Assembly: GCA_951799405.1 (NCBI GenBank) | Contig: OX637343.1 | Span: 5,952,001-6,016,000, forward strand | From: Agapetus fuscipes | Lineage: Eukaryota > Arthropoda > Insecta > Trichoptera > Glossosomatidae | Direction: 5' to 3' | DNA: 64,000 bases | Shown here: in pieces, positions 43,001 to 58,000 of the stretch | Layout: every line of letters begins with the position of its first letter | How positions within the stretch are numbered: position 1 is the first letter of the stretch | Program-made: the position numbers and the translations under genes | The notes under the pieces: model-generated | Seen by the model: the letters and a program-made list of their open reading frames with translations, nothing else | Told to the model about the DNA's origin: nothing | Databases searched by the model: none

Positions 43001-46000
43001 CCCTAAATCTAAATCTAAGTTGCAAAGATATATATCATTGGAGATTCATATTAAATGCATTCCCACAAGCAGACACGTATAAGTTCGCGCTAACACATAT
43101 CGTATGTGGACCTACAATATAAAAACCCAATCTCAAATGAACAAAGCCCTGCAACTCTTGCCGACCTTTCCTGAAACAGAGGTGACATTGGCAAAGTGAA
43201 CCATATTTTTATAGTATGGGTGGTCAGCCTCATACCAACCTATAAGTCAAGGAATCCGTAATCGATCGCGTAAATTCAAAAACACTCTTGAACAAATGTG
43301 TGTCGACAAATTCTTGAAGTATATTTTTCTTACCTAAGCGCCTGGTTCGGTCGCACTACTTCAAGCGTGCCTGCTTGTAAGAGAATATGATGATGGTTAT
43401 CACAATGTTTGATTTGTTTTGCAGAAGACCTTTCGACAGAGGAGCCCGAGGACTGCTGTTCTGAGGGAGAGGAGTGGGTGGACCAAGGATGCTCAGCTCC
43501 TGAGGATCCTGACAGGAGCGAGGCCTGCCTCAGCAGCGCGGTGGACTGCTGCAGGAAGGTCATCAAGTAAGATATGCGAGGAATCAACAAAGATATTGTT
43601 ACGTTTTCCCTTAGGGTTCTTTTAATTAAAACACAAGTTTAACACAAGTTAGCCATACAGTTTATTTACACAGACTTTCTTACAATAGATTTATTTTAAC
43701 AGACTTATTCTAACAGATTTATTTTAACACACTTATTTATTTCGTACAGATTACATTTATTTTACACCATATTGGTCGCCCTAGTAACTAGATACTCCTC
43801 TGTGTGAGTGCTTCGAAGACTGACTCGCTTCAGCCGATTGTCGCCCTTCTTATAGCGGAACCTAGGGGCCATTCCGGCCTGCCCTAGAAAGTTCCACTAC
43901 CACAGTTGTATAGACGATTCTGGACATATTTATTTCATGAAGAGTCCATTTCCTACCTACATACACACCTTACAATTACAATCGTCTGGGCTAGAACATT
44001 CTCTCAAAACACACGTACACCAATAAGCATCTACCAGTGTATTTCGTTACATTATCCCCCCCTTAGGCTGTTCCGCCCCGGAACAGTCTTTTCTTTAAGA
44101 AGGTACGGGCAGTTTGACCCACAGTTGCATCCAGTGGTCAGGAAAAATGACGTTCCACGGAATTTTCCCCTTAGGGTTTTGCCCGTCATTGCTGGCTGGT
44201 GTGGGGGGGGGTGCTTTCCTCTTGGCGGCCGGCATGGGCGCCTTTCCTTGGTTGGGGGCGCCGCCTTGCGTCCCCGGTTAGCCACCGCTCCTCGGCTCCG
44301 CTTGCTCGCCGGCTCCTGCGTCAAAGGATCAGAATCCTTGGTTGTCGGAGCCGCTCTCCTGCTCGGAAGCGGAGCTCTCACTCTTGCTCTCGTCCTCTGA
44401 CTCGCTGAGTGGCTTCCTGCCGCGCCATGCTTGGGTCGTCCCTTCTGCTTGCTCTGCTTGGCTGAGCCCCTGCGGGCGGGGGCGCGGCGCCTGCGGGAGG
44501 GAGCGCTCCCCTCCCCCACTGACGGGTCAAAGTCAGAGTCCGCCTCCTGTCCGGAGCCACTCGGGTTGTACGAGCCATCTGAATCCCCTAATTCATCCCT
44601 GCTGACCTTGGGTCCCCGCACTTTGGTTTCCGGATCTGTTTCATACTCCTCGTTAGAGTAACCTCTCTTGACAATAGCAGCAGCGGACCTTCTGGGCCTG
44701 CCTCCCGTGGCCTCGCCGCGGTCAGTCACCGGCCTCTCCTTCATCAGCCCCCTGGCGTGCGAGGAGACCTGCTTTGGCAGCAGCAGGAAGCCCACCACCC
44801 TGCTGACCAGCTCCGTGGGCGCGCCCCTCTTGTCCAAGCCCAGCTTCTTGCACAGCGTCCGCAGCTGCTTGGGCTCCAGCTTCTGCACCTCCTCCACCTT
44901 GGCCTTGTGCTCAGGCGTGTCCTTCTCAAACTCGTAGCCCTTGAACTTCTTTTTGTTGCGCTTGATGAGGTTCGTGCGGCACAATTGATTGTACAGGAAC
45001 TTGAGGTCCTCCATCTTGAACCTGGAGATGGCCACCTCCACGTCGGGGATGTGGTCGATGGGGATGCCCCGGCCCGCGGGCACGGGCACCGGCGGCTCCA
45101 CGGCCTTCTTCTTCTTGGGCGCCTCCTCCACGGCCTCCTCCGCCTTCTTCTTGGGCGCGGGCTTCTTTTTCACACTGTTGGCCTTCTTGGCCTTGCCCTT
45201 CTTGTCCTTGGCGTCCTCATCCTCCTCCTTGGCGTCCGTCTCCTCCTTCGCATCCTTGTCAGCCTTTACCTCAGCCGAGTCACTCTTGCCGTTTTCAGCC
45301 GACTTGACATCGTCTTTGACATCTTTGCTGTCAGCTGCGTCCTCAGCCTTGAGCTGGCCGTTGTTTTGGCCTTCAGGTCTCCCTTCCCCAACTCCTGAGA
45401 CGACTCATCCTCAGTTGACATATCGGCCTTTTTGTCATCCTGATTATCACTTAATTTTACACTATCAGTGTCCACCGACATTTTTAAGGCTAGGTTTTTA
45501 GCCCTCTCCTCCTTCCAACCAGCTAGGTCTTCCCTCAAGCTCTTGAAGTTGGCAGCCATCTTTGTTTTAAACTCTTCCACGGCTCGCTCGCGGTCCCCTC
45601 CAGACGCCATGACAAAATATGCCGGGTCTTCGCCTGACTGTTCCAAGGCCTCCATGAGGCGTGCTTGTAAGGCCGCCTTCCCTCCTGAGGTCTCCAGGTC
45701 CCTCTCCAGAAGCTCATTCTTAAGCTCATAGGCTTTGAGGTCCTTGATGTTCACCATAGCCATTTTTTATTTTAACAAAAATTTAAATTTACTTCAAAAT
45801 AATTTACTTCAAAACAAATTATTTTACAAAAAAAATATTTTTAAATTTCAAATAATGATATTAGATAATGATTATTTACTTTGCTTCGTCAGATCGGCTA
45901 ATGAGTATTTACTAACACTACCACAATATTATTAACACGTTATCTATGTACACTTCAATCAAATTTTTAGCGGGTAACCACACAATCGTTTTTAATTCAA

Positions 46001-49000
46001 GTTTAACCCCTGGAGTGCCAGTGATTTTCTGGCATAGCAGTATTGCATGCGATTTTTGATCTTATTGCTGTGTAACAATTAAAGAAAAATGAAAAAAATC
46101 GCATTTAGTACTATGAGCGTAGATCCACGTTCGGGCGCTCGAGGGGTTTCAGTTTTATTTAAAACTTTTTTTTTTTTATTCATTAGTTTTTATTATGTTG
46201 TCCAGAAATATTTTTCAATAGTCTTAAGCACAGATTTTTTGGTACTTGGTTTTAAATCTCACACCGACACCATTGTTACGTTTTTCCTTAGGGTTCTTTT
46301 AATTAAAACACAAGTTTAACCCAAGTTAGCCATACAGTTTATTTACACAGACTTTCTTACAATAGATTTATTTTAACAGACTTATTCTAACAGATTTATT
46401 TTAACACACTTATTTATTTCGTACAGATTACATTTATTTTACACCATATTGGTCGCCCTAGTAACTAGATACTCCTCTGTGTGAGTGCTTCGAAGACTGA
46501 CTCGCTTCAGCCGATTGTCGCCCTTCTTATAGCGGAACCTAGGGGCCATTCCGGCCTGCCCTAGAAAGTTCCACTACCACAGTTGTATAGACGATTCTGG
46601 ACATATTTATTTCATGAAGAGTCCATTTCCTACCTACATACACACCTTACAATTACAATCGTCTGGGCTAGAACATTCTCTCAAAACACACGTACACCAA
46701 TAAGCATCTACCAGTGTATTTCGTTACAATATTCACGCTGCAGAAGATAAATTTCCAATGATTGGCCTCATCGGTACAACAATAAAGAGATCTATGAAAT
46801 CTACAGAGAGCTCGATGTGATCAGTTTCATCAAAGTAGGGAGCCTGCAGTGGGCTGGCCACATAATTAGAATGAATGATGCCAACACCATTAAGCAACTA
46901 TAGAGCACTCTCTTTTTTCTTAATTGAAAAAAAAAAGATTTGTTAAGAAGAATACAATATTTAGCCTGGCCAGAAACAGGAATTAACATTTTCAATTAAT
47001 AAGTCTTTACTTAATATTTTAGTAAATTTCAAATTAGTAACTACCCAAAGACAACTCGCACGCTTAATAATAAAGAGCAATAACTCAAAAATTGGGAAAA
47101 TTGAGATTTTGTAATAAAACGCAAGAACAATGCGAGAAGAATAGGTAGAATGAGACAGCCGTTCAATTTGGACGAATATGACCGAGATAAAACATCGGTC
47201 GCCTTTTTCATCCCATACAAGTTGTACTGGTTGTTTGAACTTCAAACGTGATTTCCCTGAACTGTTGAACCAGAATCGAAGTTATTGTCGATAGGACAAT
47301 AGGGCTCGAACAGTCGAGGTTCAAACCTGCGCTTGTATCAATAAACCTGTGTCAGGGCAGGTCAGCAAGAGTTGCAGGGCGTGTGTTCATTTGAGATTTG
47401 GGTTTTTATGTTGTAAGTTCACATACGGCATGTGCAACTTATACGTGTCTGCTTGTGAGAATGCACATAAGGTGAATCCCAAATGTTACATATCTTTGCA
47501 ACTTAGATTGGAGTGTCGACACCTTATCATTCTGCTCATGGCTTGATGGCTCTTGGTTTACTTCCAGGGACAGAGTTGACTGCGCCAAAGGTATAGAAGT
47601 CGCTAAGGAAGGAAACCAATGCGACGCAGAGGAAGGCGAAGTCAAGGTAAATTAATTATGTGTCATTTTTGGAATTTTCTTTTGGGTCTGTTGTGCTCCT
47701 GGACCATTATTTTTCATTTTATCCAGAGTTGTGCAAATTTTGTGATCCAAATTTCTTTCTCTATGGTTTGGAGCTTAAAACCGTGGACGAATATTGGCGA
47801 ATTCCAGCTTCATCTATTTGTGTTCCTTTACTAATAGGTTGGTATGAAGCTGACCCCTAATGCTGTAAAAACTTGGTCCACTTTAGCCAATGCCACCACA
47901 CAGTTTCAGGGAAAAGTGGGAGGAGTCACAAAGTCAATGTTTATGTGACGTTTGGTTAATTTTGTGTGTACACATGCATCATGTATAAAGGGCAAACTTA
48001 CATAATATGCCTGCTTGTGAGCCTATGAGCCTTAAATGTCAATACATCTTTACAGCTTAGATTACAGATTATAGACACTCTTCTTTAACTTTTTATGGCC
48101 GAACTGCCTCAACATCTTTTCCAACTGTTTCACCATTTTGCCTCAAACTTTCAGACTTTTCCACATCGATACCTTGAAGGTAAAACTGAATAAGTGACAT
48201 ATTAAGCTAACATTAGTTTCTCAGATAAATGCTCCTTTTTTCCTATTTTCTGTGAGAGAAAACACCAACACAGTGTGAAGATCCTATAGTTTACAAGTTC
48301 TATATGATCGCTTACTTATAATAGTTCACTTACTGTTAGAAGTTACACGCAATAAAACGTTTTTCACAATTTCTCAAATCAGTGAATCAGCACTTATTCA
48401 GTTTTACCTTTGAGGTGGCGATATATTTTCAGACTTTGTCTTAAAATAGTAATTTATGTTAGAATACTGCCGTGCACTCTCATTATCTGGAGGCAAATAT
48501 TGGCAGAATACTCGGGAGATAGCACAATATGTACTTGAAAATAACTGACTGGGTAACTGTAGTGAAGTGCCACAGTGTCCCTCCAATGCTTGTTTGGTTT
48601 ATCTATCATTTGATTCGAAGATGGTCTTTTAATGAAATTGTCTGAAGAATCACTTTTTAATTGACCGGTCCTTAGTCCAGTGGCAACACTTTGAACTCGT
48701 AAGTGAAAGGTTTTGGGTTTGAATCTCGGCGGAGCACAATAAATATACCATTTATAATTTCAAATATGCTCTTCGCTGGGCTGAAAAATTCATAAAACCT
48801 TTATCCGGTCGATAGCTCAGTTGGTAGAGTGCTTGCATTCTACCCCGTGAGCTCGGGTTCGAATCCCACCGAGGAGGGTGTCAGAAATGATTTCCCATTT
48901 CGGTGTTTATTTCAAACCCCATAATAAAAATACCGGCAAGGTTTACTCAGCCTTCACAAGAAATGAGTACCAGCCCCCTTAGAAGCTGCGAAACTCCTAC

Positions 49001-55000: not shown

Positions 55001-58000
55001 ATAGTTTTGGCCTTCCATTGCGAAAGAGTTTTAAAAAATAATGGTATTTGCCTTCCACAGCCAACGAGCTCGACGGAGTGAGCTAGGCGGGAAATGAGAT
55101 GAGTCAGATGAAAGAGTTGTTTGCCTTCCATCTACAGCGGGCTTAGCGGAGCCCACAGAGTAGCCAACTAGGCGACATGACAGTGTGTGACGGCTCATTG
55201 CAGCCTACGCCCAGATCAAACGTTTTAATTATTAATAAAAAAGTTTTTTTTGTTTCGAGAAATAAAAAGTAATGTATTATTTTGCTTTAATACATAAAAA
55301 GTAGATGTTTTAAATAAAACATACATTTTAATATTTTCAAATTTATAAAATAATGTATGATGTGTTTTTGTAAATCATGTATGATGTGTTTTATCGCGGG
55401 GTACTTTCACTGTAACTGTAACTGTAACTCTGTCGCCATTCCGCTAGGGGTGGCCAGAGCCTCTGCAGAGCTGCCTCCATTTTTTCCTATCCTGACATAC
55501 CTCTTTCAATTCCTTCATATCCATCACCTTTTTCATGCATTTTCTTCTTTTACGCTCACTTTGTATATCCCATTCTTTCACAATCTCCTCAATCTGATCA
55601 CTCCATACTTTTCTCGGTCGTCCCTTCCCTCTTTTTCCTTTCACACTTTCTTTGTATACATACTTTGTCAGTCTATCATCTTTCATTCTTTCCACATGCC
55701 CAAACCATCTCATCACATTCTTTTGTACTTTAACTTTCACATCCTCTTTCAAATTACATTCTTTTTTTACCCATTCATTCCTAACTCTATCCCTCAAAGT
55801 TTTTCCTGTCATACTTCTCAAATGCTTCATTTCCACCGTACATACTTTACTCATTTCGCTATCATTCACTGTCCATGCTTCACTTCCATACATCAAAGTC
55901 GGTAACAATATGCCATTGTGTACCGCCATTCTCAGATCCATCGTCAATCGCTTGTTCTTTGCTATTCTTCCTATTGCACCGACCACTTGCTTTCCCTTGC
56001 ACACCCTATTCTCAAGTTCTCTTGTCATCTTTCCATTCTTTTCAAACATACTTCCCAAGTATCTAAATTCATCCACAATTTCAACTTTCGTACCATTCAA
56101 CATAAACGTGCATTCTTCAGTTTCATCCCTTCTGTCAAAAATCAGTACTTTCGTCTTACTTGCATTAATTTTCAACTTGCTTGCACACAGAACATGGTTC
56201 AAACTAGAGAGCATTGTCTGGAGTTCCGCTGCTGAATCAGCAATTAATACTGCGTCATCAGCATAAAGCAGAACTCCGACTTTTCTCTCTCCAATTTGTA
56301 TGCCATGTCCTTCCAGATTCGCTTGTTTAACACAATGATCCATGATTATATTGAATAACCATGGGCTCATTATGCAACCCTGTCTCACACCTTTGTACAC
56401 ATTAAAATACTCGCTGTATTCTCCATCCACCCTGACACACGCCCTGCTATTTACATAGATGGCGCGTATCGCATTCAAAAGTGCTTTGTTTACACCATAC
56501 TTCTCTAGCACACACCACATCATACTTCTATCCACCGAGTCGAAGGCTTTCTCAAGATCTACGAAAGCCGCGTAGACCTTTTTATTAACGGCCAGCTGTT
56601 TTTCGACTATCTGTCGAAGCGCGAATATCTGGTCTACGCAACCTCTTTCTGGCATAAAGCCAGATTGTATATCTGAGACCTTCTCCTGGGTGGATAATCT
56701 TACCCTATGGATAAGAATCTTGCATAGCACTTTACCTGGCACACTAAGAAGGCTGATCGGTCTGTAGTTACGGCAGTCTTTTTTGTCGCCTTTACCTTTG
56801 TAAATTGGCACAATGACCGCCTCTCTCCAGTCCGATGGAACCTCCTTGACACTAACACACAATTCGCAAAGCTCTTTCATCCATTCGATCACACATTCTC
56901 CTCCCGCTTTCAACATCTCAGGTCTCACACCATCCACACTTGCAGCTTTCCCATTCTTTAATTCCTTTATAACCTTTCTTACTTCTTCTTTCGATATTTT
57001 CAAAACATTACCCTCATCATATTCTCCTTTCACAGTTAAATCACATTCATCTTCACCAAAAACCTCATTAAAATATTCTTTCCATCTCTTTTTTACATCT
57101 TCTTTATTCCACAGAATGTCTCCGCTGACATTTTTGATTCCCGGAGTTGTGGACTTACAACTTTCGTCGTTTTGTCTCACCCAGCTCCAAAACATCTTTT
57201 TATTGTCAGAGAAGTCATTCTGTGCTCTTTCACTTAATTTCTCTTCCATACTTCTCTTCACATTTCTTGTAATAGCAACTGTCATGCAACTGCGCGGGTT
57301 GGTGCGGGGGGCACGGGGGAGCGGAGTCCGTTGAAAACTAGCGGCCGAGACCATGACACAGCGGACTCATTTATACTCGCTCAGTCCGCTCCGCTCACTC
57401 CGCTGTCGGTGGAAGCACTTCTATGAAATTTACTGTTGCTAGTCAAGCGGAGTCCGTACGGAGTCCGCTGGAAACTCGCTCAACTCTGCGACCACTTTTG
57501 TAACTCTTTGTACTCGCTCAGTCCGCTCCGCTCACTCACTGTCGGTGGAAGCACTTCTATGAAATTTACTGTTGCTAGTCGAGCGGAGTCCGTACGGAGT
57601 CCGCTCCGCTCGCAGTGGAAAGCGGGCATTAAGGTGGCAGCATGTCAGATCACAAAACCCGTTGTCATTCCTTTTTGTGATTTATTTCAATTAAATATAT
57701 TACACTTAACATGCAAAGCCTATTAATACATATAAAAATCAAAAACTCAATTAAATGAATAAAAGACAACACAACACTATGCAGCTAACAGCCCTGCTAC
57801 AAAGAATCAAGGCTTCAACCGCCACAATTCAACACCTCTGAGTGTCATAAACCCCTAGAGACTCTTAAATCTAGGGAGTATCCCGCACAGGTTACCTTTA
57901 AAAAATTACACACAAAAAACCTATGTTAATAGTTTGAAATAAACGAACAGTCTTCTTAGTGATTATTTTTCAAAGTATACGAGCTTAAGACATCTAGTTA

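Follow-up and report, generated by a model that had tools for sequence, protein, structure and literature searches.

A DEK-carrying, non-autonomous LTR retrotransposon family of Ty3/gypsy descent in Agapetus fuscipes

The element at 43597-46728 and its Gag-DEK gene

In the 64-kb stretch of Agapetus fuscipes DNA analysed here (contig OX637343.1, positions 5,952,001 to 6,016,000; hereafter the window), positions 43597-46728 comprise a complete long terminal repeat (LTR) element transcribed in the sense of the minus strand. An earlier note, made from the letters alone, had described an LTR retrotransposon carrying a SAP-DEK gene in place of gag-pol. From comparison with other loci of the genome, we find that the window element is one copy, its frame now broken, of a family that is large, recent, non-autonomous and derived from Ty3/gypsy, in which spliced coding sequence of the host gene DEK lies between the start of gag and the last codons of pol; this anatomy and origin we regard as close to certain.

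The two 455-bp direct repeats with TG..CA ends that the earlier note reported differ by 2 mismatches (99.56% identity), and its 4-bp atat duplication, primer-binding site (PBS) and G-rich polypurine tract in minus-strand sense are likewise present, giving the element every feature by which an LTR retrotransposon is recognised. By window position, the features are:

43593..43596 (no strand): target-site duplication (TSD) ATAT, left
43597..44051 (minus): 3' LTR in the sense of transcription
44052..44189 (minus): tail codons with a degenerate CCCH zinc finger, a remnant of the Pol C-terminus; the TAA adjoins the LTR (window frame 44052-45014)
44055..44066 (minus): polypurine tract, G-rich, 3' of a hairpin-forming stretch
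44190..45487 (minus): DEK-derived coding sequence, spliced; frame lost near 45367; 3' boundary uncertain by some tens of bases either way
45488..45763 (minus): gag-derived N-terminus with SAP domain
45764..46257 (minus): 5' leader, including the 142-base stretch 46007-46148 that is not in copy L013
46258..46272 (minus): primer-binding site TGGTGTCGGTGTGAG
46274..46728 (minus): 5' LTR in the sense of transcription
46729..46732 (no strand): target-site duplication ATAT, right

Among frames of at least 50 codons, no protease, reverse transcriptase (RT) or integrase was seen in the window copy, and Pfam, run on its two long minus-strand frames, gave SAP alone together with weak matches below the cut-off. 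Since neither frames nor Pfam disclose a protease, RT, RNase H or integrase of its own, the DEK element is not autonomous. The reading frame of the window copy is split into 165 + 320 codons, with 1 base fewer near 45367 than L013; the intronless SAP-DEK frame of the earlier note is therefore right as to splicing and does not hold as a single frame in this copy. The 142 additional bases of its leader (relative to L013) are also missing from those copies that show both flanking pieces in the interior comparison, and by eye the ends of the stretch resemble imperfect inverted repeats, perhaps those of a small nested transposon. No tRNA gene was found in the 64-kb window.

The gene of the element runs from about 92 residues of a SAP/coiled-coil Gag start through spliced DEK to the last Pol codons, which continue into the polypurine tract, and its protein measures about 570 or 668 residues. 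Two SAP stretches are assigned to this protein by Pfam, and residues 170-348 match human Protein DEK (8kcy; E 1.9e-12, phmmer against PDB), supplying the DEK core with SAP-like domain that defines the DEK family. No Pfam match to DEK_C (PF08766) was obtained for the element protein; the domain is present in the host DEK gene, and through its exon we located this parent on the same contig as the window (C11:946574-960416, with C11:945000-964800 read). Residues 93-521 of the element protein correspond to nine segments of the host gene, at 86-94% protein identity in five and 57-79% in the other four, and the eight gaps between them, ranging from about 150 bases to 4 kb, are missing from the element. 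A spliced host complementary DNA (cDNA) within LTRs, together with an intron-bearing parent gene, amounts to gene transduction, and both the captured chromatin-protein cDNA and the intron-containing DEK parent envisaged in the earlier note were thus found. For the whole element protein, the matches listed from the protein database were only host DEKs of two moths; for its start, one Gag was matched.

Residues 1-92, which have no counterpart in host DEK, resemble the start of Gag proteins. One such match is to P0003, a Gag from a metagenome (E 4.9e-6) that by eye continues in a capsid-like manner, and the DNA of the gag start is 91.9-94.0% identical to SAP-gag loci of the genome in all 10 compared. 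At the other end, the tail resembles the CCCH-zinc-finger end of Pol in an autonomous family, A, described below (74% over about 131 bp). With its N-terminal SAP deriving from a Ty3/gypsy Gag, the gene joins Gag to DEK and closes with the zinc-finger end of Pol. The assignment of SAP to DEK in the earlier note accordingly suits the DEK core and the second SAP stretch, which are DEK-like, but not the N-terminal domain; similarly, an interior free of protease, RT and integrase agrees with the frames searched, whereas gag is not wholly absent, because the first 92 residues are a remnant of it.

At the junction, element DNA follows gag through AAAAACCTAGCC and then continues as DEK with TTAAAAATGTCGGTGG. 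In the host DEK gene, AGCTCTTAAAAATGTCGGTGG stands directly after a likely splice acceptor, which places the switch in a microhomology of AGC, slightly ahead of the start codon of DEK by a few bases.

Copies, autonomous relatives and sequence exchange

A 37-mer spanning the gag-DEK junction occurs at 293 sites in the 618-Mb genome (147+146; up to 3 mismatches), with 0 for a reversed-pattern control. This number provides the further genomic copies that the earlier note had proposed to look for, and rules out its alternative of a single captured pseudogene. At 39 other scored places, the longest interior piece is 95-99% identical to the window copy. LTR pairs are 100% identical in 9 of the 13 copies measured and 99.6-99.8% identical in the remaining 4, and TSDs match in 11 of the 12 copies with both flanks available; the element is thus, as had been supposed, non-autonomous and recently mobile. 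From an N-terminal protein search, 11 of the best 150 rows had a frame of less than 500 codons, these rows being best hits and thus skewed to recent copies. Among 24 loci read across the frame, themselves best hits or picked for long frames, 20 are intact at 569-668 codons (19 of them distinct) and 4 are shorter or end differently. In one subfamily (L067-L071, 665-668 residues), an internal stretch toward the 3' end of the DEK-derived frame is duplicated in frame, at an offset of 97 codons. DEK-element protein matches at C25:1509013, 1512323 and 1515633, exactly 3310 bases apart, form a tandem array, perhaps with shared LTRs.

Autonomous relatives were located via P0003 and via the leader of another type of DEK copy, L042. 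In family A (L065, L066 and L074), Gag comprises SAP, coiled-coil, capsid and CCHC parts; behind it come protease, RT, RNase H and integrase, and a macro domain and then a CCCH finger close the series, an order taken from Pfam and PDB searches for L065 and from frames for the others; L074 has a stop within pol, and its end lies outside the part seen. Family B (L073, with part of pol missing, and L075 with L076) has a like plan as judged by frames, and its copy at C1:632392-638858 possesses identical 281-bp repeats, the TSD ATAT, and a gag frame (440 codons) and a pol frame (1424 codons) that are both free of stops. In pattern counts (up to 3 mismatches, controls 0), B gag was found 29 times and A gag 474 times, the latter including the capsid-keeping gag-myosin elements considered below. 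DEK is absent between gag and pol in the autonomous copies read (L065, L066, L074, and L075 with L076), and is therefore a capture, not a standard gag feature. RT and integrase in longer copies with the same SAP frame were to have made DEK a part of gag, according to the earlier note; such copies do exist, but they lack DEK.

The DEK element differs from both families in having no capsid, protease, RT, integrase or macro domain. It resembles family A in its gag start (92-94%), its leader (about 78% for the L042 type) and its polypurine hairpin, and family B in its gag start (95% for copy L073), PBS motif, ATAT duplication and parts of its LTR. The L073 leader, for example, is 96% identical to that of the L042 type (95.8% over 429 bp), its LTR 95.9% identical over 218 bp to that of the DEK element and its hairpin-polypurine region 91% over 45 bp; the L075 LTR is 80% identical over 198 bp. 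Taken together, the gag start, leader and LTR parts held in common with L073 and L075, along with the Pfam order of L065, indicate Ty3/gypsy descent. Family A was rejected as the partner: its LTR is weakly alike (local scores of 55.5-59, against shuffle maxima of 36.5-43.5 with 100 shuffles each), and family B fits better. The PBS of family A is TGGTGTCAGG or TGGCGTCAGG, unlike that of the DEK element. A search for the partner through exact LTR-end and PBS sites led to DEK copies only, apart from two loci interrupted by other sequence (L039 and L051).

The Pol of family A ends in a TARG1/OARD1-like macro domain (phmmer against PDB, 8e-11) and a CCCH finger (L065:1395-7046), and the Pol end of family B (L075/L076) resembles it as judged by frame. 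Pfam gave no match for the macro domain of L065 at E 0.01; the PDB search did show it. Pol with a macro-CCCH end also occurs in beetles, Molorchus and Callosobruchus being among at least 11 listed proteins, of which six were aligned. At what we take to be the position of the TARG1 catalytic Asp, aligned by eye, the sequences of this genome have Ala and six relatives have Asp. Macro-domain frames are mentioned for fish endogenous retroviruses in PMC4977317.

Sequence has been exchanged between the DEK-bearing and autonomous lineages. The L042-type and L013-type DEK subfamilies have a common junction but differ in the coiled-coil stretch of Gag, where one is close to the B copy L073 and the other to L075, a difference that probably reflects a later exchange of the 5' part by recombination. 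In addition, 40 bp inside the LTR of L073 (L073:4972-5011) and L075 (L075:411-450) match the element's own coding sequence for the DEK core at 92.5% identity (E 2e-12), compared with 92.5 and 90% to the host gene. The presence of a DEK coding fragment in B-family LTRs implies that DEK-bearing and B-family sequences have recombined.

A second host sequence appears to have been taken up by a sister family. At the locus L054/L064, which has A-type LTRs, pol is replaced: Gag is followed in the frame by a myosin-tail-like coiled coil, the macro region and a CCCH finger. The coiled coil matches the Pfam myosin tail at E 2.4e-8, below the curated cut-off, and in PDB Myosin-10 at E 0.013 only. It also matches a gene with myosin-tail exons on contig C13 in two pieces (query 104-122, E 0.007; query 123-222, 82% DNA identity, E 1e-24); the element has these side by side, and in the gene 673 bases lie between them. 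The gag-myosin junction is present at 221 sites in the genome, and the captured part was apparently spliced from the C13 myosin gene.

Retention of the reading frame

A sample of copies was defined by the exact 23-mer of LTR end and PBS, whose 44 sites were chosen regardless of open frames. We read 33 of them, 2 interrupted by other sequence and 31 uninterrupted; among the latter, 29 are open across the whole covered part (338-439 codons) and 2 are broken (the window copy and L024). The other 11 sites comprise 7 with frames of at least 531 codons, 1 with 298 and 3 without a frame figure. Distinct insertions and deletions (indels), scored with L013 as reference, come in multiples of three in 12/14 cases in the coding part versus 11/36 in the leader (Fisher P 0.001), with seven loci left out of the comparison (two interrupted, five with another leader or deletions). 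A smaller set of 20 PBS loci outside the best-hit lists, which omits best hits such as the window copy, a number of which are broken, gave a like result: all 18 uninterrupted loci are open, and indels in threes number 11/11 in the coding part versus 10/27 in the leader (P 3e-4; 13 of the 20 loci). That copies of this family keep their frame is thus well supported.

Substitutions among 16 loci outside the best-hit lists were then classed as nonsynonymous (N) or synonymous (S), with P values that treat variants as independent and ignore the tree. Constraint is strongest in gag 1-57 (N 6, S 14, omega 0.15, P 5e-5), followed by the DEK core at 231-345 (N 6, S 8, omega 0.27, P 0.016) and the acidic part of DEK at 96-230 (omega 0.49, P 0.055). 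L043 and L044 were dropped because internal deletions misalign them; with both included, DEK 96-430 gives N 120, S 66 and a ratio of 0.51. Between host DEK and L013, dN is 0.042 and dS 0.162, a ratio of 0.26 that is taken from in-frame segments and mixes both branches. Judged from these sequence comparisons, amino-acid selection is clear at the Gag start, probable in the DEK core and absent in the linker.

Role of the fusion protein and comparison with known elements

The explanation we favour, with a probability of roughly 60%, is that of an element which transduces a host gene, is mobilised in trans and still draws use from its Gag-DEK protein. During its formation, reverse transcriptase would have left gag RNA for a DEK mRNA packaged alongside it and then returned to the element at its 3' end. 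The enzymes would come from family B or a close relative, and mobilisation in trans is very likely. Gag-DEK might join Gag through their common N-terminus and hold the complex or new DNA on chromatin by its DEK core, and the fusion protein might act for its own RNA. That the frame is kept in many copies of an enzyme-dependent element suggests a benefit in cis, whether from the product or from the act of translating it. Selection of the protein for the element's own cycle is probable, and within that, a chromatin tether rather than some other use of Gag-DEK is possible at slightly less than even odds.

Several observations weigh against this explanation. The captured sequence lacks the DEK_C exon and, in its core, four residues of moth DEKs, its stretch 444-476 is read in a different frame from host DEK, and AlphaFold gives a poor model for the core (pLDDT 52). 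No autonomous copy matching the DEK-element LTR at full length was found, the best being L073 with 218 bp. Among the 16 loci, DEK 346-425 shows no constraint (N 5, S 1); over all 35 copies, the DEK core has a marginal omega of 0.44 (P 0.049), and DEK 96-425 one of 0.68 that is not significant at 5% (P 0.064). Among 19 distinct copies that are near the window copy or have long frames (L012, identical to L011, being dropped), pN/pS is 0.78 overall, close to neutral. Finally, PBS-bearing copies with broken frames are known: the window copy, L024 and C20:6993694, the last with a frame of 298 codons.

The following would be expected if the DEK cDNA were an accidental passenger, with LTRs, PBS and leader alone driving movement and frames open through youth: LTR pairs are identical in 9/13 copies, variation among near copies is almost neutral, DEK 346-425 is unconstrained and at least three PBS-bearing copies are broken. 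Youth alone accounts poorly, however, for coding indels falling in threes while those in the leader of the same copies do not, for 29/31 open frames, and for the omega of 0.27 in the DEK core, and we consider the passenger account improbable. The bias among indels could also arise at the RNA level, where an open frame up to the LTR would keep the RNA translated and safe from nonsense decay, with amino acids irrelevant; a stop codon at the LTR border and a DEK stretch that is off the host frame yet open agree with this. Since amino acids would not matter, it is at odds with omega being lower for gag 1-57 and the DEK core than for DEK 346-425, which leaves it about as improbable as a passenger role.

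The fusion might instead disturb host DEK in heterochromatin, easing silencing of the element. PMC10753498 describes DEK as a chromatin factor with Su(var)-like activity on which the integrity of heterochromatin depends, a role that would fit either a tether or an anti-silencing function of the fusion, and the loss of DEK_C is in keeping with the latter. Such interference also requires a selected fusion and would benefit other copies equally, and we hold it to be rather unlikely. That gag of this retrotransposon lineage has long included DEK as a regular part is very unlikely indeed: the SAP frame is common to the DEK and autonomous copies, but the latter (L065, L066, L074, L075) have a gag with capsid and CCHC and then pol, with no DEK, and the protein of five DEK segments out of nine is as close as 86-94% identity to exons of the host itself.

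In acutely transforming retroviruses (delta-gag-onc), viral genes have given way to host cDNA joined to the gag start, and a helper supplies the rest. The DEK element likewise fuses host cDNA to the gag start and needs a helper, but no env occurs in the copies read, amplification has taken place within the genome, the cargo is a chromatin protein and no transformation is implied. Non-autonomous terminal-repeat retrotransposons in miniature (TRIMs) and large retrotransposon derivatives (LARDs) are not known to have coding capacity; the DEK element shares their dependence on enzymes in trans, but codes for a protein and so falls outside these classes. For TRIMs, this dependence is stated in PMC10886601. 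Host-gene capture by LTR elements is itself already known, from Bs1 of maize and other plant LTR retrotransposons, with transduced host sequence in the same orientation as gag and pol (PMC7264820), and from a survey of captured genes in plant LTR elements (PMC3726574). With these the DEK element has transduced host-gene sequence within an LTR element in common; it differs in being from an insect, in its in-frame Gag-DEK-Pol-tail fusion, in its 293 junction sites and in its kept frame. No report of a DEK-carrying LTR element was recognised among the papers listed in literature searches.

A bolder reading, which we think unlikely on present evidence, is that the SAP-Gag/macro-CCCH-Pol lineage of Ty3/gypsy elements would be a serial gene thief with two high-copy Gag-host fusions (DEK and myosin tail), and that Gag-DEK would be a working effector on chromatin, either anchoring the particle or relaxing silencing in cis, as an insect counterpart of gag-onc retroviruses. 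A jumping element with a host gene as its main cargo is a rare case. Here, about 290 recent copies of a captured chromatin gene, joined in frame to Gag and showing signs of selection on that frame, stand beside an intron-bearing parent and a recent autonomous relative, with exchange recorded in an LTR, so that one genome lets the formation of a capture, its spread and the benefit of cargo to a non-autonomous element be tested directly.

Two further observations concern the surroundings of the window copy. By eye, 43425-43566 is a likely host exon (AG before, GT after), and the element is inserted about 27 bases into the intron that follows. On the minus strand at 55444-57354, a 636-codon open frame matches the RVT_1 reverse transcriptase (6.8e-39) and probably belongs to a non-LTR retrotransposon.

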